Source of the DNA: Mycobacterium simulans
GTDB lineage: Bacteria; Actinomycetota; Actinomycetes; Mycobacteriales; Mycobacteriaceae
Assembly (NCBI RefSeq): GCF_900232995.1
Contig: NZ_OCVX01000003.1
Coordinates: 103,781 to 167,780 of the forward strand
Direction: 5' to 3'
Length of the DNA: 64,000 nt
Of the stretch, positions 7,434 through 36,120 are shown in pieces; position 1 is the first letter of the stretch; each line of letters starts with the position of its first letter. A program made the translations under genes and the position numbers. The notes beneath the pieces are model-generated. The model was given only the letters and a program-made list of their open reading frames with translations, was not told the DNA's origin and ran no database searches.

Positions 7434-7850
7434 CTAAACCCTGCGGCGCTTGGGCGGGCGGACGCCGTTGTGCGGCTGGGGGGTGACGTCAGAGATCGCA
7501 CCGACCTCCAGACCAGCGGCCTGCAGCGACCGGATCGCGGTCTCACGGCCCGAGCCCGGGCCCTTCACGAACACGTCGACCTTGCGCACGCCATGCTCCT
7601 GGGCCTTGCGCGCGGCGTTCTCCGCTGCCAGCTGAGCGGCGAACGGAGTCGACTTGCGGGATCCCTTGAAGCCGACGTGACCCGACGACGCCCACGCGAT
7701 GACGTTGCCCTGCGGGTCGGTGATCGTCACGATCGTGTTGTTGAAGGTGCTCTTGATGTGCGCGGCACCGTGCGGGACGTTCTTCTTTTCTTTGCGGCGG
7801 GTCTTCTGGCCCTTCTTGGGTCCTGCCCCAGTTGCCTTCTTCGGTGGCAT
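7434..7850 (-). CDS. rpsK: 30S ribosomal protein S11
   Basis: 138 aa, full length. The family core is present: [40 protein letters not shown] and the C-terminal [19 protein letters not shown]11 lies in the platform of the small subunit. The gene lies 11 nt upstream of the rpsD start and 3 nt after the rpsM stop, within the alpha operon. Confidence 0.99.
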
Positions 7851-7853
7851 CGT

Positions 7854-8228
7854 TTACCTGGCCTTCTTCTTGCCTGCGATGGTGCGCTTGGGGCCTTTGC
7901 GGGTCCGCGCGTTGGTTTTGGTCCGTTGGCCACGCACCGGCAGGCCGCGGCGGTGCCGCAGGCCTTGGTAGCAGCCGATCTCGATCTTGCGGCGGATGTC
8001 GGCCTGCACCTCGCGGCGCAAGTCACCCTCGACCTTCAGGTTGGCTTCGATGTAGTCACGCAGATGGGTCAGCTGGTCATCGGTGAGGTCCTTGGTGCGC
8101 AGGTCCTTGTCGATGCCGGTGGCCGCCAGAATTTCGTTCGAACGGGTACGGCCAATGCCATAGATGTAGGTCAGCGCGATCTCCATCCGCTTATCGCGTG
8201 GTAGATCGACGCCTACTAGTCGAGCCAT
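7854..8228 (-). CDS. rpsM: 30S ribosomal protein S13
   Basis: 124 aa. Begins [20 protein letters not shown], with [20 protein letters not shown] and the basic tail [20 protein letters not shown] that contacts P-site tRNA. An A-rich purine ribosome site (AAAGAAGAGGA) precedes ATG 8228. Overlapping-phase neighbours rpsK (3 nt gap) and rpmJ (about 190 nt upstream) give the usual order. Confidence 0.99.
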
Positions 8229-24094: not shown

Positions 24095-24100
24095 ACGCTA

Positions 24101-24473
24101 GCCCGGCGACGATGCAGACCGCGTAGCGGTGTGAGGAGGAGCCGGGCATTTCAGGCCCAGCCCGGCGACGATGCAGACCGCGTAGCGGTGTGAGGAGGAG
24201 CCGGGCATTTCAGGCCCAGCCCGGCGACGATGCGGCCGCATCGCGGCCGAGGAGGAGCTGGGCAATTCAGCCTAAGCCCGGCGACGATGCAGACCGCGTA
24301 GCGGTGTGAGGAGGAGCCGGGCAATTCAGGCCCAGCCCGGCGACGATGCAGACCGCGTAGCGGTGTGAGGAGGAGCCGGGCAATTCAGGCCCAGCCCGGC
24401 GACGATGCAGACCGCGTAGCGGTGTGAGGTGGGGCCCCCACCCGCTTGCGGGGGCGAGCTGGGCAATACCGAC
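24101..24473. repeat. Intergenic 59-bp tandem repeat (VNTR), about six units
   Basis: Units begin at 24101, 24160, 24219, 24276, 24335 and 24394: spacings 59, 59, 57, 59, 59. Each starts GCCCGGCGACGATGCAGACC and ends GCCGGGCA plus a short linker, so GCCCGGC and GCCGGGC pair to close a hairpin in every unit. The third unit diverges in its centre (GCGGCCGCATCGCGGCC) and the last unit departs after GTGAGGTGGGGCC. The array separates mapA (stop 24474) from the sigL promoter. Such arrays vary in copy number between strains and could affect mapA termination or sigL expression. Confidence 0.9.
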
Positions 24474-25274
24474 TTAGGCAACCGTCAGGATGCGAGGCCC
24501 GGTTTCGGTCGCCGCCACGGTGTGCTCCCAGTGTGCCGCTCGTGATCCGTCGGCGGTGGTGACCGTCCACTTGTCCTCGAGCACCAGGGTTTTTGTAGTT
24601 CCCAGGGTCAGCATTGGTTCGATGGCCAAGACCGAGCCCGCCACCAACAGTGGTCCGCGCCCCGGCGTGCCCACATTGGGCAGGAACGGATCCATATGCA
24701 TCTCCCGGCCGATGCCGTGGCCCCCATATCCGTCGACGATACCGAACGAACGCCCATACCGAAGTTCGGCGCGACGCGTGCCCGTTTCGATGGCGTGTGC
24801 CACGTCGGACAGCCGATTGCCGACAACCATCGCCGCGATTCCGGCTTCCAGTGATTCCCTGGTCGCCTCGGACAGCGCTTCGTCGGCCACAGCCAGGGTT
24901 CCGACCCCGAAGGTGATTGCCGCATCGCCATGCCAGCCGTCCAGCACCGCACCGCAGTCGATTGACACCAGGTCACCGGGCGCCAATATCTCTGCGGCGG
25001 AGGGTATTCCGTGAACAACCCGGTCGTTGACCGAAGCGCAGATCGACGCCGGGTAGCCGTGATAGCCCAGGAACGATGGGGTCGCGCCGGCTTCGCGAAT
25101 CACCGACTCAGCGATCTGGTCAAGACCCAGGCTGGACACACCAGCGATCGCGGCCGCACGGACTGCTTGCAGCGCCGAAGCTACGACCGCCCCCGCCGCG
25201 GCCATTGCGTCGAGTTCGCCGGGAGTGCGCTGCGGCACGACTCTGCGACCCCGCAGTCGTGCCAGAGCGCGCAT
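24474..25274 (-). CDS. mapA: Methionine aminopeptidase, type I
   Basis: 266 aa. Removes the N-terminal Met of new proteins. Metal ligands are visible: [21 protein letters not shown] (two Asp), [13 protein letters not shown] (His), [11 protein letters not shown] (Glu) and [10 protein letters not shown] (Glu). It lacks the N-terminal SH3-binding extension of the longer mycobacterial MapB. ATG 25274 is 2 nt after the adk stop, in the secY-adk-mapA operon. Its stop abuts the tandem-repeat array. Confidence 0.96.
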
Positions 25275-25276
25275 CG

Positions 25277-25936
25277 TTACTTGCCTGGGTTTGATGAGGG
25301 GCGACCCGCTGCGCCCGGCTCCGCCGTGCTTGCGATCACCCCTGGGTTTGATGAGGGGCGACCCGCTGCGCCCGGCTCCGCCGTGCTTGCGATCACCCCG
25401 AGGGCTTGCAAGGCGCGGGCGAACACTTCATCCATGGTGCCGACGGCGTCGACCGTCTTCAACTCGCTGCGGTAGTACTCGAGCAGCGGAGCGGTCTCGT
25501 CGCGGTACACCTTCATCCGATTGAGAATGACCTCGTCGGTGTCATCGGCGCGGCCACGGCCTTTGAGCCGCTCCAGCAGCACCTCTTGCGATACCCGGAA
25601 CTCCAGGACCGCGTCGATGTCGGTCCCCCGGCGTTGCAGCATCTCGTGCAGCGCCTTGGCCTGTTCCACCGAGCGCGGATATCCGTCGAGGATGAAACCC
25701 TTGGCCGCGTCCGGGTGGTTCAACCGGTCGTCGACGAGTTCGTTGGTCAGATCGGAAGGCACCAGGTCACCGGCATCCAGATAGCGTTTGGCCTCCACGC
25801 CGAGTTTGGTGCCGTCTTCGATGTTGCGCCGGAACAGTTCGCCGGTGGAGATCTGTGGGATCCCGAGTTTCTCGGCCAGCTTCTCGGCCTGCGTCCCCTT
25901 GCCCGCCCCCGGCGGTCCCAGCAAAACAACTCTCAC
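25277..25936 (-). CDS. adk: Adenylate kinase with a repeat-derived C-terminal extension
   Basis: 219 aa; the usual mycobacterial enzyme is about 181 aa. It interconverts ATP+AMP and 2 ADP. The core is normal: P-loop [38 protein letters not shown] and [12 protein letters not shown]. The core ends [10 protein letters not shown] and is followed by two copies of a 19-residue sequence ([19 protein letters not shown]) and a final Lys, the residue that normally ends the protein. The extension is encoded by a perfect 57-bp tandem duplication. GTG 25936 overlaps the secY stop by 4 nt. The core is complete, so activity is expected; the tail is probably disordered. Confidence 0.96.
25284..25397. repeat. 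Two 57-bp tandem repeats inside the 3' end of adk
   Basis: Units start at 25284 and 25341, each reading CCTGGGTTTGATGAGGGGCG and onward to GCGATCACC on the plus strand. The period is 57, a multiple of three, so the adk frame is kept. The unit contains GCGCCCGGCTCCGCCG, similar in style to the GC-rich intergenic repeat 0.8 kb away but not the same sequence. Confidence 0.9.
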
Positions 25937-27483: not shown

Positions 27484-28428
27484 ATGACCCAGCTGGGCAG
27501 CGCGCGGTTCGAGGGCGATACATGGGACCTGGCATCCAGCGTGGGCCTGACGGCCACCATGGTGGCGGCGGCCCGGGCCGTGGCAGCACGGAACCCCCAT
27601 GGTGCCGGGGCCGTGGCCCACGACCAATTCGCGGAACCGCTGGTCCGCGCGGTCGGCGTCGACTTCTTCACCCGGATGGCCAGCGGTGAGCTCGATGCCG
27701 CCGACCTCGATGAGGACGAGGCGAACGGCATGCGCCACTTCGCCAACGCCATGGCCGTCCGGACCAGGTTCTTCGACGACTTCTTCATCGACGCCACACG
27801 GGCCGGCATCCGACAGGCCGTGATCTTGGCGTCGGGCCTGGATTCCCGCGCCTACCGGCTGTCCTGGCCCTCCGGCACCATCGTGTTCGAAGTCGATCAG
27901 CCGCAGGTGATCGAGTTCAAGACCGCGACGTTGTCCGGTTTGGGTGCTGCGACGACGGCGGACCGTCGCGCGGTAGCCGCCGACCTACGCGACGACTGGC
28001 CCGCGGCGTTGCAAGAAGCCGGCTTCGATCCGGCGCGGCGGACCGCATGGATCGCCGAAGGGCTGCTGGGTTATCTCCCCGCCGACGCCCAGAACCGGCT
28101 ATTGGATCAGATCACCGAGCTGAGTGTGCCGGGCAGCCGATTCGCCACCGAGGGTCTGCTCGACGTCAACGAGCTCAACGAAGTTGAACTGCGGCGCCGC
28201 ATGCAGCGCCAGAACGAGCGGTGGAATCGCCACGGCCTCGACCTCGACATGGCCGCACTGGTGTATTTCGACGACCGCACGGACGCCGGGACATACCTCA
28301 CCGCCCACGGCTGGCGGATCGCCAGCGCGAACAACTCAGACCTGCTCGCCCAACACGGACTGCCGCCGGTTGACGGCGACGACGCCCCGTTCGGCGAGGT
28401 GGTCTACATCAGCGCCGAGCTGGGTTGA
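27484..28428 (+). CDS. SAM-dependent methyltransferase, TIGR00027/LCM-like family
   Basis: 314 aa. This family (leucine carboxyl methyltransferase fold) is greatly expanded in mycobacteria; substrates are mostly unknown. Seen are [23 protein letters not shown] near the start, [17 protein letters not shown], the SAM-binding [28 protein letters not shown], and [19 protein letters not shown] 27484 follows GGGGAGGAAC. It is divergent from secY exactly as H37Rv Rv0731c. Its stop lies 20 nt inside the 3' end of the convergent P450 gene. Confidence 0.9.
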
Positions 28429-29713
28429 ATTCCAGGTGTAGTTCGGACAGTGCGCGCAGCGTGTACGTCGGTTCGTAGCTAAGGCGAGCGCCGGCCGGGC
28501 CGTGTTCGGCCGCCGACAATCTGATCTCGGTCATCCTGTCGAGGATGCCCTCGATGGAAACGCGGCTCTGCACCCGGGCCAGGTGTGTACCGGGGCAGAA
28601 ATGAGCGCCCCGGCCGAAAGCCACGTGGTCGCGCATATTCGGCCGATTCAACCGGAATTCGTGCGGATCCTCGAACTTGCGGGGATCGCGGTTGACGGCT
28701 CCCAGGCACACCATCACGGTGGTGCCCGCGGGAATCGCAACGCCGCCAAGCGTGGTTGTCTTGCGCACCAACCGGAAATCGCTCTTCACCGGACTTTCCA
28801 TCCGGAGGACCTCCTCGATGAAATTCGGGATCCGGCTGTGGTCGTCGCGGAGCTGCCGCACCAGATCGGGGCGGTCGGCCAGCATTCGAAGCGACCAGGT
28901 CAGCAACACGGCGGTGACGCCTCGCGCCGCCGTGAACAAAAGGGTGGCGCAACGGGCGGCGTCGGCGATTTCGGGTGTCGCCCCATCGGGATAGCGCGCG
29001 TTCGCCAGCCGCGTCAGCACGTCCGGGCGAGGCTCGCGTCGCCGGTCCAGCAGGTAATGGCCGAACTTGTCATCGAGCCACTCGAGCGAATTGTGTTGTA
29101 TCGGTATGTGATCCAGTGCGCCAACCGGGACGTGGGGGCGCGGTGCGTCGAACGTCTCGCGGTCTTCTACCGGTATGCCAAGCAGGTCCGCAATCACCTT
29201 GGACGAGAACGGCTTGGCGTATCCGGACACAAACTCGCACTTCCCGGCTTCGATGAAGCTGTCGATCTGCTCATCAGCGAGGCGCCGCAGCAGCTCCTCG
29301 TTCGCCTGAATGCGCTTGGGCGTCAGCAGGCGACTCAGCAGGAAACGCACCCGGGAATGCTCGGGTGGGTCCATCGTGGTCATGTACTTACTCATCGGCA
29401 TCTGGTCGCGATACCGCTCAATCTGCTCATCGATGTCGTCGCCCTGGGGTTCGAACGGCAGCGGTGGAAACGGTCCGCCGACCGCCACAATCGACGAGAA
29501 GGTCCCGGCGTCCTTGTAGACCACCGTGGCCTCCTCGTGGCCGGTAACAGCCACCACGTCGTGATGCGGCAGGTTCAACACCGGGCTCTGCGCCCTGAGG
29601 TGGTCGAAGTAGGGGTACGGGTTCGGTAGCAGGGACTCGTCGGCGAAGAAGTCGATCGCGTCCGGAGCACCAGCCAACACTCGCCTAGGGCAACATTCCA
29701 TAGAAGTAATCAT
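28409..29713 (-). CDS. Cytochrome P450 with atypical I-helix
   Basis: 434 aa. Heme-binding loop [16 protein letters not shown] with the thiolate Cys, K-helix [10 protein letters not shown] (ExxR), and HRC region. The I-helix reads [14 protein letters not shown] where most P450s have A-G-x-D/E-T-T: the conserved acid before Thr is Val. The acid/alcohol pair normally delivers protons to the ferric-peroxo oxygen, so catalysis may be peroxide-driven or non-monooxygenase. ATG 29713 or 29701 can start the protein. It is divergent from the small-peptide gene at 29857 with a 143-nt shared promoter region, so it may act on that peptide, but it may equally be independent. Confidence 0.88.
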
Positions 29714-29814
29714 ATGCTTGATTTATTGTTGCGCATGTGCAAGAGTTCCCCCGGTCGGTCAGGACAGGTCGGTCGTGCAGGGCGGGCGCAATCGCCGGCA
29801 ACGTAGGCACGGCC

Positions 29815-29846
29815 GTTCGGAATCAAGAAAGTTCGGAATCAAGAAA
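29815..29846 (+). repeat. Duplicated 16-nt block that carries the ribosome site of the small-peptide gene
   Basis: GTTCGGAATCAAGAAA occurs twice in direct succession (29815-29830 and 29831-29846). The second copy, extended by GGG, gives AAGAAAGGG 7 nt before ATG 29857; the first supplies a second purine-rich stretch 23 nt upstream. Confidence 0.85.
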
Positions 29847-29856
29847 GGGTTGATCA

Positions 29857-30027
29857 ATGTCTGTCGTAATCACTCGCAACGAATCGCTCGCGGCTACGGG
29901 CTTCTCACCGGCAGATCTCGAGACGCTGCGTGCCATCAATGAAAAAATCGCCACCGCTCGCACCGCCCCAACGAAATTGGCTGACGACGCCTGGCTCTGT
30001 ATCAGCGCTGTCAATGGGCTCACGTAG
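29857..30027 (+). CDS. Small peptide, 56 aa, putative RiPP precursor
   Basis: Below the size of most gene calls but well supported locally: AAGAAAGGG 7 nt before ATG, TAG stop at 30025-30027, no overlap with other genes. The peptide begins MSVVITRNESLAATGFSPAD, continues with a helix-prone charged stretch (LETLRAINEKIATARTAPTK) and ends LADDAWLCISAVNGLT. An N-terminal soluble, charged leader followed by a short C-terminal segment with Trp, Cys, Ser, Asn and Thr is the usual build of a ribosomally made, post-translationally modified peptide. Downstream genes are a GNAT and an M29-like peptidase, and a P450 is divergent. I do not recognise the family; no signal peptide or toxin/antitoxin motif is evident. 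Confidence 0.6.
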   Translation: MSVVITRNESLAATGFSPADLETLRAINEKIATARTAPTKLADDAWLCISAVNGLT

Positions 30028-30054
30028 TTCCGAAGTTTCCTGCACCAGGAGACG

Positions 30055-30625
30055 GTGACACCCCTCTTAGCCACAGCGATCCGAAAGCCACAGATCCACG
30101 CGATGGAACCCCCAGTATTGTCGACTAAGCACCTTGTCCTACGCTGCGTGACGGCAGCCGACGAGGATGCAATCGTTGAAGCCTGTAATGATCCGCTGAT
30201 TGCGCAGTATCTGTGGTTCCCAGTGCCATATACTCACGAAGACGCCCGCAAATTCATTGCCGACTCATCCGTAGGCTGGGCAGAAGATACCACCTACGGC
30301 TTCGGATTTTATGAAGCCTCAACGGGTCAGCTGGCCGGAACCTGTGCGCTGATGCCAGTATTGCGCGGTGTCGTAGAACTAGGCTATTGGACCGCACCGG
30401 CTTATCGCAATGGCGGATTCACCACCGAAGCAGCCCATAGATTGTGCCAGTGGGGATTTGATGAACTGCCAATACACCGGATCGAAGGTAATGATGGGAA
30501 ATGAGAGTTCGCGGGCCGTGGCACGAAAAATAGGATTCGAGTTGGAAGGAATGCTACGTCAGCGGGCATATCGACGAGGCCAGCCACGAGACTGGTGGGT
30601 GGGCGCATTACTGTCGAGACCCTAA
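30055..30625 (+). pseudogene. GNAT acetyltransferase (RimJ-like), frameshifted
   Basis: The first frame (30055-30504) encodes LSTKHLVLRCVTAADEDAIV, a central GFGFYEASTGQLAGTCALMP, and the acetyl-CoA site ELGYWTAPAYRNGGFTTEAA, then ends early at HRIEGNDGK. The missing end, VMMGNESSRAVARKIGFELE to WWVGALLSRP, continues in the +2 frame from about 30489 to 30625. Related proteins read HRIEW-x-V here, so about five bases (for example between two GAA triplets near 30483-30490) appear lost. Either the gene is broken, or there is a sequencing error, or a programmed shift. The start is GTG 30055 by its AGGAGA site or ATG 30103 by family alignment. It lies 27 nt after the small peptide gene. Confidence 0.75.
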
Positions 30626-30665
30626 TTGCGCCGGTGTACCTACTGAGGAAGTATTTGTGTGACAA

Positions 30666-31730
30666 ATGAAAAATAAGGAAAGACCTGCCGAGCCATCTGT
30701 AATTAACGGCATGGACACACTCTGCACCAGCTATCTCGAATTGAAGCCCGATGACCGGGTACTCATGCTTTATTCGCACGAACTGCAGGGTGACGATGAC
30801 CAAAGCTTGCTCGACACTCTACGCGAACGGATTGGTGCGCATTCGGTTGGCGTTTGGATAAAGCCCGCCGACGCATTCGACGAATGCGACCTTGCAGACT
30901 GCGATGTGTTGCTGCTCGTCAGCAGGGTATCCAGCAGCCATCGCGCAAAGATACTCGAGTACCTCGAATTTGCCGGTGGGCTAAGTCCGACCCGAATCTT
31001 CCGGCTATTCAACTTCTCCCCACAGCTATTCAAACTGACTCTCGCCGTCGATCGTTCATCCCTGGACAGTTTGAATAATTCTGTCATCGGAGCTGCTCGG
31101 TCGACACACGACATCCACATTACTAATGAGGCCGGAACCGATCTGCACGTCCGCCCATTAGCAGACGGCGGATGGACAAACAGCAGCGGGTATTTCTGTG
31201 GACGTTTTCCCGCTATCCTGCCGCCCGGAGAGGTAAATACCTATACTCCTCACGTGACCGGAACCGTTGTGGCTGATGGGGCGATAAATTCAAGCTTTGG
31301 ATTTCCCGGCGATCCTCGATTGGCCACTAGTCCCGTTACCCTTGAAATTACCGAATCCGTGGTCAAGAAGGTAACCTGCGCCGATCCAGTGGTGTCGTAT
31401 GTTCTGAGTAACTTCTTTAAGGTCGAAAACGCCGACCGCGTCGGCGAAGTTGGCTTCGGCACCAATGAAGGAATTACGGAATGGGTCAATTTCCTGTCGC
31501 ACATAAATGAGCGCCACCCGGGCCTGCACCTTGGGTTGGGAACTCCATCACAACCGCGGTCGAAGGTTGGCTGGGGCTCGCCTCTACATCTCGACATGAT
31601 TCTGGATGGATGCAGGATCTGGTTTGACGACGCCCTGGTGTTCTCGAATGGAATCTGGGATCGTGCAGCGCTCAACACGCTGCATCAGGGTGTGACTGTG
31701 CATGATGTCCTACACGTCGACGCGGTTTGA
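30666..31730 (+). CDS. M29 aminopeptidase-like / NicX-like protein
   Basis: 354 aa. The second half follows the M29 thermophilic aminopeptidase / 2,5-dihydroxypyridine dioxygenase superfamily: GEVGFGTNEGITEW, LHLGLGTPSQP and SPLHLDMILDGC, holding the Glu, His, His and Asp that bind metal in that fold. The N-terminal half (LELKPDDRVLMLYSHELQGD) is a Rossmann-like domain. Neighbours suggest it trims the leader of the peptide at 29857, but a catabolic role is possible. Base composition is lower in GC than flanking genes (31 of 60 in 31261-31320). Start ATG 30666 or 30711 is uncertain. Its 3' end overlaps the convergent desaturase gene by 21 nt. Confidence 0.65.
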   Translation: MKNKERPAEPSVINGMDTLCTSYLELKPDDRVLMLYSHELQGDDDQSLLDTLRERIGAHSVGVWIKPADAFDECDLADCDVLLLVSRVSSSHRAKILEYLEFAGGLSPTRIFRLFNFSPQLFKLTLAVDRSSLDSLNNSVIGAARSTHDIHITNEAGTDLHVRPLADGGWTNSSGYFCGRFPAILPPGEVNTYTPHVTGTVVADGAINSSFGFPGDPRLATSPVTLEITESVVKKVTCADPVVSYVLSNFFKVENADRVGEVGFGTNEGITEWVNFLSHINERHPGLHLGLGTPSQPRSKVGWGSPLHLDMILDGCRIWFDDALVFSNGIWDRAALNTLHQGVTVHDVLHVDAV

Positions 31731-32859: not shown

Positions 32860-35800
32860 CTACACCAGTGCCATGATCTGCGGTAAGGCTTCGCGCGCGG
32901 CGACTCGACCCGCCTCGCGGGCACGGTCGATCTGGTGGAACTCGAGGAAGCCAATGGCGCTGGTGTCGGGCGTAATCGCCAGGTCCGCCTGCGCCAGCAC
33001 GGCCGCCGACGCCATGCCGCTGCCGATCGTGATGGTGCGTATCAGGGTGTCGCTGATGGCTGGCACCCGTAGTGAGCGCCCGTGTTCGGCCGTCGGTGTG
33101 GGGTGTGCCTCCCTTCCGGCGCCGACTTGCACCGCGATCACCGGACCGTCGCGGCGGTCCAGCGTGGTCACCGGTAGGTTGTCGAGCACGCCCCCGTCGA
33201 CGTGCAGCGACTGGTCGTAGAGTTTCGGCGGGTACAAGCCCGGCAGCGACACCGAACAGGCGAGAACCTCGGCGAGCGGGCCGCGGCGGTGCACGACGGC
33301 CCGCCGCTCCAGCAGATCGACGCTGACGCAGCGGAATTCCTTCGGTAGTTCCTCCACGAGGCGTGCGCCATATGCGTCGTAGAGAGCGGCCAGGGTACGC
33401 CGGCCCCGAATCAGCCCCTTGCTGGGCAGCGTGTAGTCGGTGACGGGATTGTTGCGGACAAAGTACTCGTAGATGTGGGCATCCACGGCGGCTGCGTCCA
33501 GGCCCATCGCGGCGAGAGCGGCGACAACCGCTCCCATGCTGGTCCCGGCGATCCGTCCGACTTCGACGCCGGCTGCCTCCAGCTCCTCGAGCACACCCAG
33601 GTGGGCGAAGGCGCGCGCGGCCCCACCGCTGAGGACCAGCCCGACTGATTGGCCCGCAATGCGTGCCGCGAGCGGGCGCAAGTCGGCTGCCGCATGTCCG
33701 GGGCGGACCTCATGCACCGACCGCGGGGTGATCAATTCCTCCCATGTGCGCCGGTGATCCCTGGTTGCGGGCGGTCCCGCCAGCACCAGATCGGCTCCTG
33801 CGGCTCGCGCTCGTAGCCGTTCAGGCGCCGGTACCGGATCGGCGGCGACCAGCACCACGCGGTCGGCGACGCGCAGGCAGAAGTCCCACCAATCCCCGTC
33901 ATGCGCCGCGGCGTGCAACAGCACCTTGTCTGCGGCCCGCTCCGCGCGCTCCAACCCGTCGCGGTCGATGTGGCCGAATGTTTCCACTCGGAGCCGTCTC
34001 GACAGTGCTGTGGACAGTTCGGCGGCCACCATTTCGACGGGCGCCGTGGCGTCGACGCCAATAACAGCGACGACCACTTCGGGCGTCGGGTGGGCAGCCT
34101 TAGATGGCGGCGTCTGGTACAGACGACTGGCCAAGGCTCGGACCAGTGCCCTGAGCACACCCGAGTCCGCGACATTGTCGAATTGGGCTTTGGTCAGTCG
34201 CACTAGTGTGGAGTCCCGCACGGCTCGGACCGAAGCGGATCTGGGCGCGTCGATCATCAATCCGAGCTCGCCGACGACCTCCCCGCGGCCCAACTCCGTG
34301 ACCACCACGTCGTCGCGCAGCACCTGCAGCCGCCCATTACGTATCACGTAGAGGGAGTCGGAGGCGTCGCCGGCCCGGAATAGGTACGAGCCGGCCGCCA
34401 GCTCAACCTGCTCGGCGCAGTCTCGTAGTCCCGCCAGCGCGACAGCGTCCAGTCCCGCAAACAATGGCAGAGCCCCAAGCGGGTCCTCGCTGGAAGCGGC
34501 CGACGGGGGTTCGGCGAGTGCGCGGTGCCGGGGTGCCGGCCTCGATGCCAACGGTTCGAGGTGCGGCGTCGGCTCGGACTCGACCGCGTCGATCGTGACG
34601 TGGCGGGTGCGGCCCAGCAACACCGCTCCGATCGCGACGGCGGCAAAGCAGATCGCGGCCAACACCCATCCTTTTCGTAGCGCAGCTTCGGCCGCCTCGC
34701 GCCCCGGCGTCCCGACCACTACCACCAGGAGCGCGATGCCGATCACCGCACCGAGCTGGCGGGTGCTGCTGACGACGGCAGCCGCGGTGGCGTAGCTGCC
34801 GCCTGCGGCCAGCCCGGCCAGGGCGGCGCTGCCAAGCATCGGCAATGTCGCGCCGACTCCGATGCCCTGCAACAGCTGGCCGGGCAGCCACGCGCCGAGG
34901 AAATCCGGTGTCGGCCCGACGCGTTCGATGTACCACAGCAGGCTGCCGGTCCAGGTCAGCGCGCCGGCAACGATGATGATGCGATACCCATGCCGGTCAG
35001 CGACGCGCCCAAGCACCGCAGCGACAATGGCTGCGACGAACGCGGCGGGAGCGACCGCCAGGCCCGCGCGCAACAAGTTATAACCCCACACGTAGTTCAA
35101 GAACAGGACGTGGGTCAGCAGATATGCGTAGAACCCGGCGCTTGCGACCAGGGTCAACGTGTTGCCGGTTACGAACGAGCGGATGCGCAGAAACGCCGGC
35201 TCGATCAGTGGCGTCGCGTGGTTCCGCGAGCTCATGACGAATCCCGCCATCGCCACGGCCGCCGCCACGCACGACCCGATGACGGTGGCGCTCGCCCAGC
35301 CCCAGTCGGGGCCCTTGATCAGACCGAGCGTCAAGAACGCCAGCGCGGCCGCGAGCAGCGCCGCCCCCCGCAGATCGGGAACGCGTCGCCGCCCCGAGGC
35401 GCGGCTTTCGACCAGCCTCCGCCGGGCCACCATCAAAGCCACGACGCCTAGTGGAAGATTCACCAGGAACACCCACCGCCAACTTGATGCCTCGACGAGG
35501 GCACCGCCGATCGGCGGGCCAAGGCCCGATGCGATCGCGGCCCCCGCACCCCACAGGCCTACCCCGTGCGCCCGGCGCGTGGCCTCGAAGCTCTCGACGA
35601 CAAGCCCGAGCGATGCCGGCACGAGAATCGCCGCGCCAACACCCTGCAGCACACGGAACGCAACCAACTGCCCGACGCTGTCGGCGGCGGCACATAACCC
35701 GGAAGCGGCCGTGAATAACACGACCCCGTAAATGAACATCCGGTTGCGCCCGAGAAGGTCAGCGAGCCGGCCGCCTGCCACCAGGATCGCAGCGAACGCG

Positions 35801-36120
35801 ATGTTGTAGGCGTTGAGCACCCACGACAGGCTGCCGATGTCGCTGTTGTGGAAATGTCTTTGGATTGCCGGAAATGCGATGTTGACGATCGTCGAATCGA
35901 GAAAGGCGAGAAAGGCGCCGAAAGCCGCTACTAGCAGCACCGCGGTTGGTGACGGCTGGCGGCGTTGCGTGAGCTGTGGGCGCGGGTGGTCGGACGGCTG
36001 GTCGGGTTCATACGCCGTGTTTCGGTCTGCCGTGGCGACGGTCCGGGCGTTGCCCTCACTGGCACGATCAGGGGTGTATCTGTGGGCAGGCCGCCGGGGC
36101 ACTGCGATTCTGCTAGTCAT
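32860..36120 (-). CDS. MFS transporter / cNMP-binding / patatin-like phospholipase fusion protein
   Basis: 1086 aa, three modules. Residues about 60-500: 14-helix MFS drug transporter (FLDSTIVNIAFPAIQRHF, LADLLGRNRMFIYG, GAAIASGLGPPIGGALVE). About 545-660: cyclic-nucleotide domain with the phosphate cassette GEVVGELGLMIDAPRSASVRA, where both Glu and Arg are kept, so binding is plausible. About 820-1086: patatin lipase with oxyanion GGAARAFAHLG, nucleophile GTSMG and Asp in HVDGGVLDNLP. Comparable architecture is in H37Rv Rv3239c. The ATG overlaps the upstream cyclase stop (ATGA). The fusion suggests a nucleotide-gated lipid transporter with lipase output; this is inference. Confidence 0.92.
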   Translation of the reverse strand: MTSRIAVPRRPAHRYTPDRASEGNARTVATADRNTAYEPDQPSDHPRPQLTQRRQPSPTAVLLVAAFGAFLAFLDSTIVNIAFPAIQRHFHNSDIGSLSWVLNAYNIAFAAILVAGGRLADLLGRNRMFIYGVVLFTAASGLCAAADSVGQLVAFRVLQGVGAAILVPASLGLVVESFEATRRAHGVGLWGAGAAIASGLGPPIGGALVEASSWRWVFLVNLPLGVVALMVARRRLVESRASGRRRVPDLRGAALLAAALAFLTLGLIKGPDWGWASATVIGSCVAAAVAMAGFVMSSRNHATPLIEPAFLRIRSFVTGNTLTLVASAGFYAYLLTHVLFLNYVWGYNLLRAGLAVAPAAFVAAIVAAVLGRVADRHGYRIIIVAGALTWTGSLLWYIERVGPTPDFLGAWLPGQLLQGIGVGATLPMLGSAALAGLAAGGSYATAAAVVSSTRQLGAVIGIALLVVVVGTPGREAAEAALRKGWVLAAICFAAVAIGAVLLGRTRHVTIDAVESEPTPHLEPLASRPAPRHRALAEPPSAASSEDPLGALPLFAGLDAVALAGLRDCAEQVELAAGSYLFRAGDASDSLYVIRNGRLQVLRDDVVVTELGRGEVVGELGLMIDAPRSASVRAVRDSTLVRLTKAQFDNVADSGVLRALVRALASRLYQTPPSKAAHPTPEVVVAVIGVDATAPVEMVAAELSTALSRRLRVETFGHIDRDGLERAERAADKVLLHAAAHDGDWWDFCLRVADRVVLVAADPVPAPERLRARAAGADLVLAGPPATRDHRRTWEELITPRSVHEVRPGHAAADLRPLAARIAGQSVGLVLSGGAARAFAHLGVLEELEAAGVEVGRIAGTSMGAVVAALAAMGLDAAAVDAHIYEYFVRNNPVTDYTLPSKGLIRGRRTLAALYDAYGARLVEELPKEFRCVSVDLLERRAVVHRRGPLAEVLACSVSLPGLYPPKLYDQSLHVDGGVLDNLPVTTLDRRDGPVIAVQVGAGREAHPTPTAEHGRSLRVPAISDTLIRTITIGSGMASAAVLAQADLAITPDTSAIGFLEFHQIDRAREAGRVAAREALPQIMALV

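Follow-up and report, generated by a model that had tools for sequence, protein, structure and literature searches.

The nearest studied proteins of the M29 fold in the biosynthesis of a ribosomally synthesized and post-translationally modified peptide (RiPP) are CgnB and CgnE of crocagin, which together with CgnA and the dioxygenase CgnC belong to the crocagin system of Chondromyces crocatus (PMC10070186). In the passages of that paper drawn on here, the metal ligands of CgnB are given as E161, E252, E274, H280, H291 and D293. With this site intact CgnB showed no aminopeptidase activity, and the proposal is that the site helps to form a ring once CgnC has oxidised the peptide (PMC10070186). 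According to the same passages, mining had by 2023 already turned up single-copy CgnB homologues with putative precursors, both in Actinobacteria and in other groups (PMC10070186). Here we describe a locus from Mycobacterium simulans in which a cytochrome P450 gene, a gene for a 56-aa peptide and a gene for an M29-like protein are found together. It lies in a stretch of 64,000 nucleotides of contig NZ_OCVX01000003.1, the whole of which is called the window below. An earlier note on this DNA had suggested a possible RiPP locus and recognised no matching known class; the latter was too strong, as CgnB/CgnE of crocagin is a precedent.

The genes for the P450, the 56-aa peptide and the M29-like protein form a three-gene unit in six mycobacterial species. 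This unit is probably a minimal RiPP pathway: the M29-fold protein would bind the peptide, and the P450 would oxidise its conserved Trp-Leu-Cys core. The three are read as a RiPP-type unit because they co-occur within the genus, and because relatives of the M29-like protein adjoin short peptides and RiPP-type enzymes. Homologues of the peptide are encoded 5' of the M29-like gene in M. riyadhense, M. simiae, M. gastri, M. angelicum and M. szulgai, and in all six species the peptide gene sits between a divergent P450 gene and the M29-like gene. The earlier note had suggested looking for homologues of the peptide and for their co-occurrence with the M29-like gene; the five further species with a homologue all have the M29-like gene alongside. 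The layout given there is also right: the peptide gene starts at ATG 29857 with AAGAAAGGG upstream and its 56-aa frame ends at 30027, the first GNAT start (GTG 30055) comes 27 nt after the peptide gene, and the 354-aa M29-like frame (30666-31730) and the divergent P450 (28409-29713) are both in place. The features of the locus, in window coordinates, are:

28409 to 29713, minus strand: P450 gene, 434 aa, divergent from the peptide gene (Pfam p450, 8.3e-24)
29729 to 29742, no strand: near-palindrome TTGCGCATGTGCAA in the P450/peptide intergenic region, possibly a shared operator
29815 to 29847, plus strand: 16-bp tandem duplication, 2.1 copies, extending into the ribosome-binding region (TRF score 66)
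29857 to 30027, plus strand: gene for the predicted precursor peptide, 56 aa, start ATG 29857, with homologues in five other species
29983 to 30000, plus strand: DDAWLC codons, start of the predicted core, invariant in six mycobacterial peptides
30009 to 30639, plus strand: GNAT-bearing segment absent from M. riyadhense, with boundaries from local alignment
30055 to 30504, plus strand: N-terminal part of the GNAT frame, 149 aa, GTG start at 30055 (Pfam Acetyltransf_3, 2.6e-21)
30410 to 30625, plus strand: C-terminal part of the GNAT in a different frame (split), matching weak GNAT models
30666 to 31730, plus strand: gene for the M29-fold protein, 354 aa, with a predicted dimetal site, a CgnB/CgnE-like predicted partner of the precursor

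The peptide is under purifying selection. Pairwise ratios of nonsynonymous to synonymous substitution (dN/dS) of the peptide genes fall between 0.14 and 0.53 in all 15 pairs from the six species, and the recurrence of the peptide in five more species together with these ratios is more than chance. An alignment of the six mycobacterial peptides displays DDAWLC as invariant. The residues that follow differ, being ISAVNGLT in the window and ISAIY, ICAVPE, PNAVV, ICTVH and ICTVH in the five relatives. As to a pattern of leader and core, the tail after WLC varies in both sequence and length, but it is DDAWLC that is best conserved, and there is variation at the extreme N-terminus as well. The gap from the peptide stop to the M29-like start is 87 nt in M. 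gastri, 14 nt in M. simiae and 0 nt in M. angelicum and M. szulgai, where the stop codon of the peptide abuts the ATG of the M29-like gene. In the six species, a short conserved precursor gene is found next to predicted modifying enzyme genes, as is the case for RiPP loci. When 5.8 billion proteins were searched with the peptide only two entries were found, the one from the window itself and one from M. riyadhense, because most of the homologues are presumably unannotated.

The P450 matches the Pfam p450 model above its cut-off and contains the heme-binding motif FGRGAHFCPG at residue 366 and EVLR at residue 301; its nearest solved structure is CYP150A6 (6dcd, E 4.2e-174). Among 198 genomes of the same genus the M29-like gene is found in four, and no M29-like match at E 0.001 was found in the other 194. 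A P450 match at E 1e-100 is present in 161 of the 198, and P450s of 77-100% identity are found in the same four genomes as the M29-like gene, the next match on the list being 65% identical. In this sample the locus P450s thus differ from other mycobacterial CYP150-like P450s in that, at 77% identity or more, they occur only with the M29-like gene, and in a tree the six locus P450s are split from 16 other P450s of the genus with 100/100 support. Across 19 kb of M. simiae, only the P450, the peptide and the M29-like gene match out of ten window queries, two of which are parts of the GNAT; the neighbours being different, the trio occupies another site there. CYP150 members have already been counted in mycobacterial biosynthetic gene clusters (BGCs), and the term RiPP is absent from the sections of that paper used here (PMC9820752). 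The M29-like gene of the M. riyadhense genome that was searched is in two pieces around a frame that by eye looks like a transposase (L068, 5751-8699, reverse); the peptide gene remains open there, and an intact M29-like protein of 354 aa is also on record for this species.

A confident structure model predicts an M29 aminopeptidase-like fold for the third member of the trio. E189, E261, E282, H288, H308 and D310 are invariant in alignments of 39 and of 34 M29-like sequences, which are overlapping sets of chosen rows, one of them made from the window protein and 38 of its 60 matches. These six residues fit a dimetal site, as judged from the alignments, and they correspond to the six metal ligands of single-copy CgnB/CgnE members, an equivalence taken from order and spacing and not from a residue alignment with CgnB. 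Assignment to the plain M29 peptidase family of Pfam (PF02073) was rejected, with a score of 11 bits against a gathering cut-off of 27. A second look by structural alignment found that CgnB/CgnE share the fold of the M29-like protein; other M29-fold enzymes match the model at least as well. Sequence similarity to CgnB is below detection, and searches of PDB sequences with two profiles gave no match to 6zsv or 6zsu up to E 10.

Compared with crocagin as described in the passages used here, the mycobacterial loci share a short precursor with a Trp in its C-terminal core, an M29-fold protein that binds the peptide (a predicted property here), six metal ligands and an oxidising partner enzyme (PMC10070186). 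They differ from it in several respects. The M. simulans genome has one M29-like match, and the mycobacteria have one such protein where crocagin has the CgnB/CgnE pair. A P450 is present instead of CgnC, though no search for a CgnC homologue was made. The motif is Trp-Leu-Cys with a variable tail, whereas crocagin has a C-terminal Ile-Tyr-Trp, and the predicted leader is about 42 residues long as against 18 (PMC10070186). The mycobacterial trio also comes without a methyltransferase, an esterase and a carbamoyltransferase. Classification as a crocagin-like BGC proper was not adopted, given the single M29-like copy and a core that does not end in Tyr-Trp.

A scan of contigs gave 63 loci with relatives of the M29-like protein, four of them mycobacterial. 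The enzymes around them were tallied with queries from these same loci, each of which finds its own locus and which miss enzymes outside the query set, and the names come from Pfam and NCBIfam scans of selected neighbours. At five of the 63 loci (L009, L013, L026, L038 and L053) a radical S-adenosylmethionine (SAM) gene begins no more than about 1.5 kb away from the M29-like start, and L031 has another one at 6.7 kb. A flavoprotein of the cysteine decarboxylase type is found at three (L009, L013 and L053), YcaO at two and a cupin/JmjC-type gene at eight; at 11 loci a methyltransferase gene begins no more than about 1.3 kb from where the M29-like gene ends. P450 genes are found at the four mycobacterial loci only, others lying 2.4 and 7 kb off in L023 and L024.

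A short frame with W-x-[I/V/C] in its second half was found upstream at 40 of 51 M29-like loci and at 19 of 223 control genes from the same contigs, the loci being related to each other and the motif having been picked after the peptides were seen. The count is 36 of 47 without the four mycobacterial loci. A first version of the test had given 23 of 37 loci against 15 of 176 control genes; for the second the placement of the M29-like start was changed, the searched stretch was widened, and loci including the mycobacterial four were added. Twelve of the 63 loci were excluded as truncated, archaeal or very distant (L051, L052, L056-L060, L062-L065 and L067). The 11 misses are L009, L013, L022, L025, L035, L042, L044, L045, L048, L049 and L054; in L009 and L054 a W-x-[IVC] peptide is located further upstream.

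In a midpoint-rooted tree of M29-like proteins, the mycobacterial branch lies on the same side of a 100/100 split as L009, L053, L013 and metagenomic sequences. At L009 (Acidimicrobiales) the gene for a peptide with the ending AINEKISAIRLKDIGDVASDWVCVNVVC is followed by those for a radical SAM protein, the M29-like protein and, last, a decarboxylase-like protein. With a profile of the mycobacterial peptides this peptide frame ranks first of 7470 frames, at an E of only 0.017, and the AINEKI element that it carries is a further likeness to them. L053 (Trinickia) has a peptide ending LDWICNFGC with radical SAM and flavoprotein genes alongside, and no precursor was identified at L013. W-x-C is common to the mycobacterial, L009 and L053 peptides, the last two of which differ in ending in Cys, and L009, L013 and L053 have radical SAM and decarboxylase-like proteins where the mycobacteria have a P450. 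The radical SAM proteins of L009, L013, L026 and L053 have RiPP maturase models as their best matches, below the cut-offs. The flavoprotein of L053 matches CoaBC better than RiPP cysteine decarboxylase, both below cut-off, and the decarboxylase-like frame of L009 is named solely by its phmmer match to that of L053. Searches for further relatives of the branch brought up few: among 396 genomes from the phylum there are two, the window's own genome and one whose weak match contains an internal stop. Among 296 genomes from the class to which L009 belongs there are three, one being that of L009 itself; the remaining two are G914, with a peptide that ends in RYRITYET, and G841, for which no peptide turned up.

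Several further arrangements were seen among the 63 loci. Precursors with two copies of W-x-[IV]-x-Y-x-T, mostly from sphingomonads, are encoded 5' of the M29-like gene at L030, L032, L034, L036, L037, L040, L043, L046, L047 and L055 (AWTISYST...AWTISYST in sphingomonad peptides), and nine of these ten also have a methyltransferase after the M29-like gene. L044 encodes a peptide with eight tandem TYKT-type repeats directly 5' of its M29-like gene (7662-7946). In the Nocardia locus L054 (5486-7650) the surroundings of the M29-like gene encode a W-Y-I-A-Y-R-T peptide, a protein of the arginase family and a methyltransferase; arginase-like enzymes can produce ornithine in RiPPs.

In the pathway proposed for the mycobacterial trio, the helix-prone N-terminal part of the peptide, with LETLRAINEKIA, would be the leader. 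The M29-like protein may hold the precursor at a dizinc site, by analogy with what has been proposed for CgnB in crocagin, and its main task would be to assist a reaction on the core, not to cut the leader. The CYP150-like P450 would stand in for the radical SAM protein of the nearest relatives outside the mycobacteria and for the CgnC of crocagin. The oxidised Trp-Leu-Cys might then be crosslinked, and the tail trimmed by a protease encoded elsewhere. Two observations weigh against this proposal and its comparisons: CgnB/CgnE are not among the best 50 Foldseek matches of the structure model, and the decarboxylase-like frame of L009 matches none of the Pfam or NCBIfam models. A wider reading is more speculative and unlikely. 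According to this, RiPPs with a Trp-x-(Ile/Val/Cys) core would make up a broad superfamily that spans actinobacteria, proteobacteria, cyanobacteria and myxobacteria, in which the M29-fold protein is the partner throughout and the oxidising or modifying enzymes are interchangeable. The mycobacterial P450 would have replaced a radical SAM protein and would install a Trp-Cys crosslink, tryptathionine-like, with the thiolate activated at the dizinc site.

The most serious alternative is a RiPP pathway with a true metallopeptidase, with the P450 acting on the core and the M29-like enzyme cutting off the leader or trimming the tail. We regard it as unlikely, since CgnB with an intact metal site had no aminopeptidase activity in the cited passages (PMC10070186), and since L031 has a separate S41 peptidase gene upstream of its peptide and M29-like genes and may therefore have a protease of its own. 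It is still less probable that the M29-like protein is a NicX-like dioxygenase or hydrolase of small molecules that works with the P450 in catabolism or detoxification, and that the small peptide has a regulatory or structural role. The six invariant ligand-like residues that fit a dimetal site speak against this, as does the presence, next to relatives of the protein, of W-x-[IVC] peptides and of RiPP-type enzymes whose chemistries are unrelated.

The GNAT encoded between the peptide and the M29-like gene looks, from the sequence, like a later, broken insertion outside the shared unit. In a local alignment, homology between the window and M. riyadhense ends at 30008 and resumes at 30640, and the GNAT therefore sits on a segment whose start falls within the 3' end of the peptide gene. 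This insert of about 630 bp altered the last residues of the peptide and left DDAWLC unchanged. The earlier note took the GNAT to be a single gene; its frame stops at 30504 and the C-terminal part is in another frame within 30410-30625, both parts matching a single unbroken frame in L110. In five relatives (L069, L006, L007, L008 and L068) the locus gave no GNAT match at E 1e-5; a 66% identical GNAT in one frame is present in G049, a genome of the same genus with no M29-like match. The GNAT was rejected as a pathway enzyme because of the insert boundary within the peptide gene, the split frame and the absence from the five relatives, and the comparison with selidamides falls for the same reasons, the GNAT not being a conserved member of the locus. 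That it acylates the peptide in a selidamide-like RiPP pathway, as the earlier note proposed, is thus highly improbable, even if it lies between the peptide and M29-like genes in the window and a GNAT gene follows the M29-like gene of the Nocardia locus L016, which counts against leaving the GNAT out. What stands of the proposed unit of precursor, modifying enzyme and peptidase is the precursor, the P450 and the M29-like protein.

Likeness to the P450-modified RiPPs (biarylitides, atropopeptides and aminopyruvatides) consists in a P450 combined with a ribosomal precursor. The precursors of these classes have Tyr/Trp motifs other than DDAWLC, and we know of no M29-like protein described for any of them. 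A further difference is that the window P450 scores 66.6 bits with the ApyO model, which has a cut-off of 525 bits.

The block is low in GC content, as was noted before: 0.579 for the peptide gene, 0.553 for the GNAT segment and 0.538 for the M29-like gene, against 0.643 for the window, where 1% of stretches the size of the M29-like gene are as low. The M29-like genes of M. angelicum and M. szulgai have values of 0.628 and 0.623, so low GC is not common to the relatives. Versions of the near-palindrome at 29729-29742 that differ from it by one or two changes are present in the corresponding intergenic regions of M. riyadhense, M. simiae, M. angelicum and M. szulgai; none is evident in the P450/peptide intergenic region of M. 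gastri. In its own genome the TTGCGCATGTGCAA pattern has this sole exact match and, with one mismatch allowed, no more matches than a control pattern.

Elsewhere in the window, a perfect 57-bp duplication (25284-25399) at the 3' end of what we take to be an adk-like gene gives a repeated C-terminal extension. A 59-bp tandem repeat of 5.7 copies (24100-24436) adjoins a 266-aa gene (24474-25274), presumably a methionine aminopeptidase. A frame of 1086 aa (32860-36120) is apparently a fusion, the parts of which, named by eye, we assume to be an MFS transporter, a cyclic-nucleotide-binding and a patatin-like part.

Among the matches listed from open-licence PubMed Central, no work on an M29-like RiPP protein other than that on crocagin was recognised, and none on the mycobacterial P450/peptide/M29-like locus. 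The pairing with a P450, the mycobacterial family and the link to radical SAM operons were likewise not recognised there. Since the M29-like type adjoins radical SAM, YcaO, cupin, methyltransferase and P450 genes, its role is probably common to them. If the proposed pathway is true, several slow-growing mycobacteria, including M. szulgai and M. simiae, would carry an uncharacterised ribosomal peptide natural product, a P450 of the CYP150 branch would gain a candidate substrate, and the role of CgnB-like M29 proteins would become testable.
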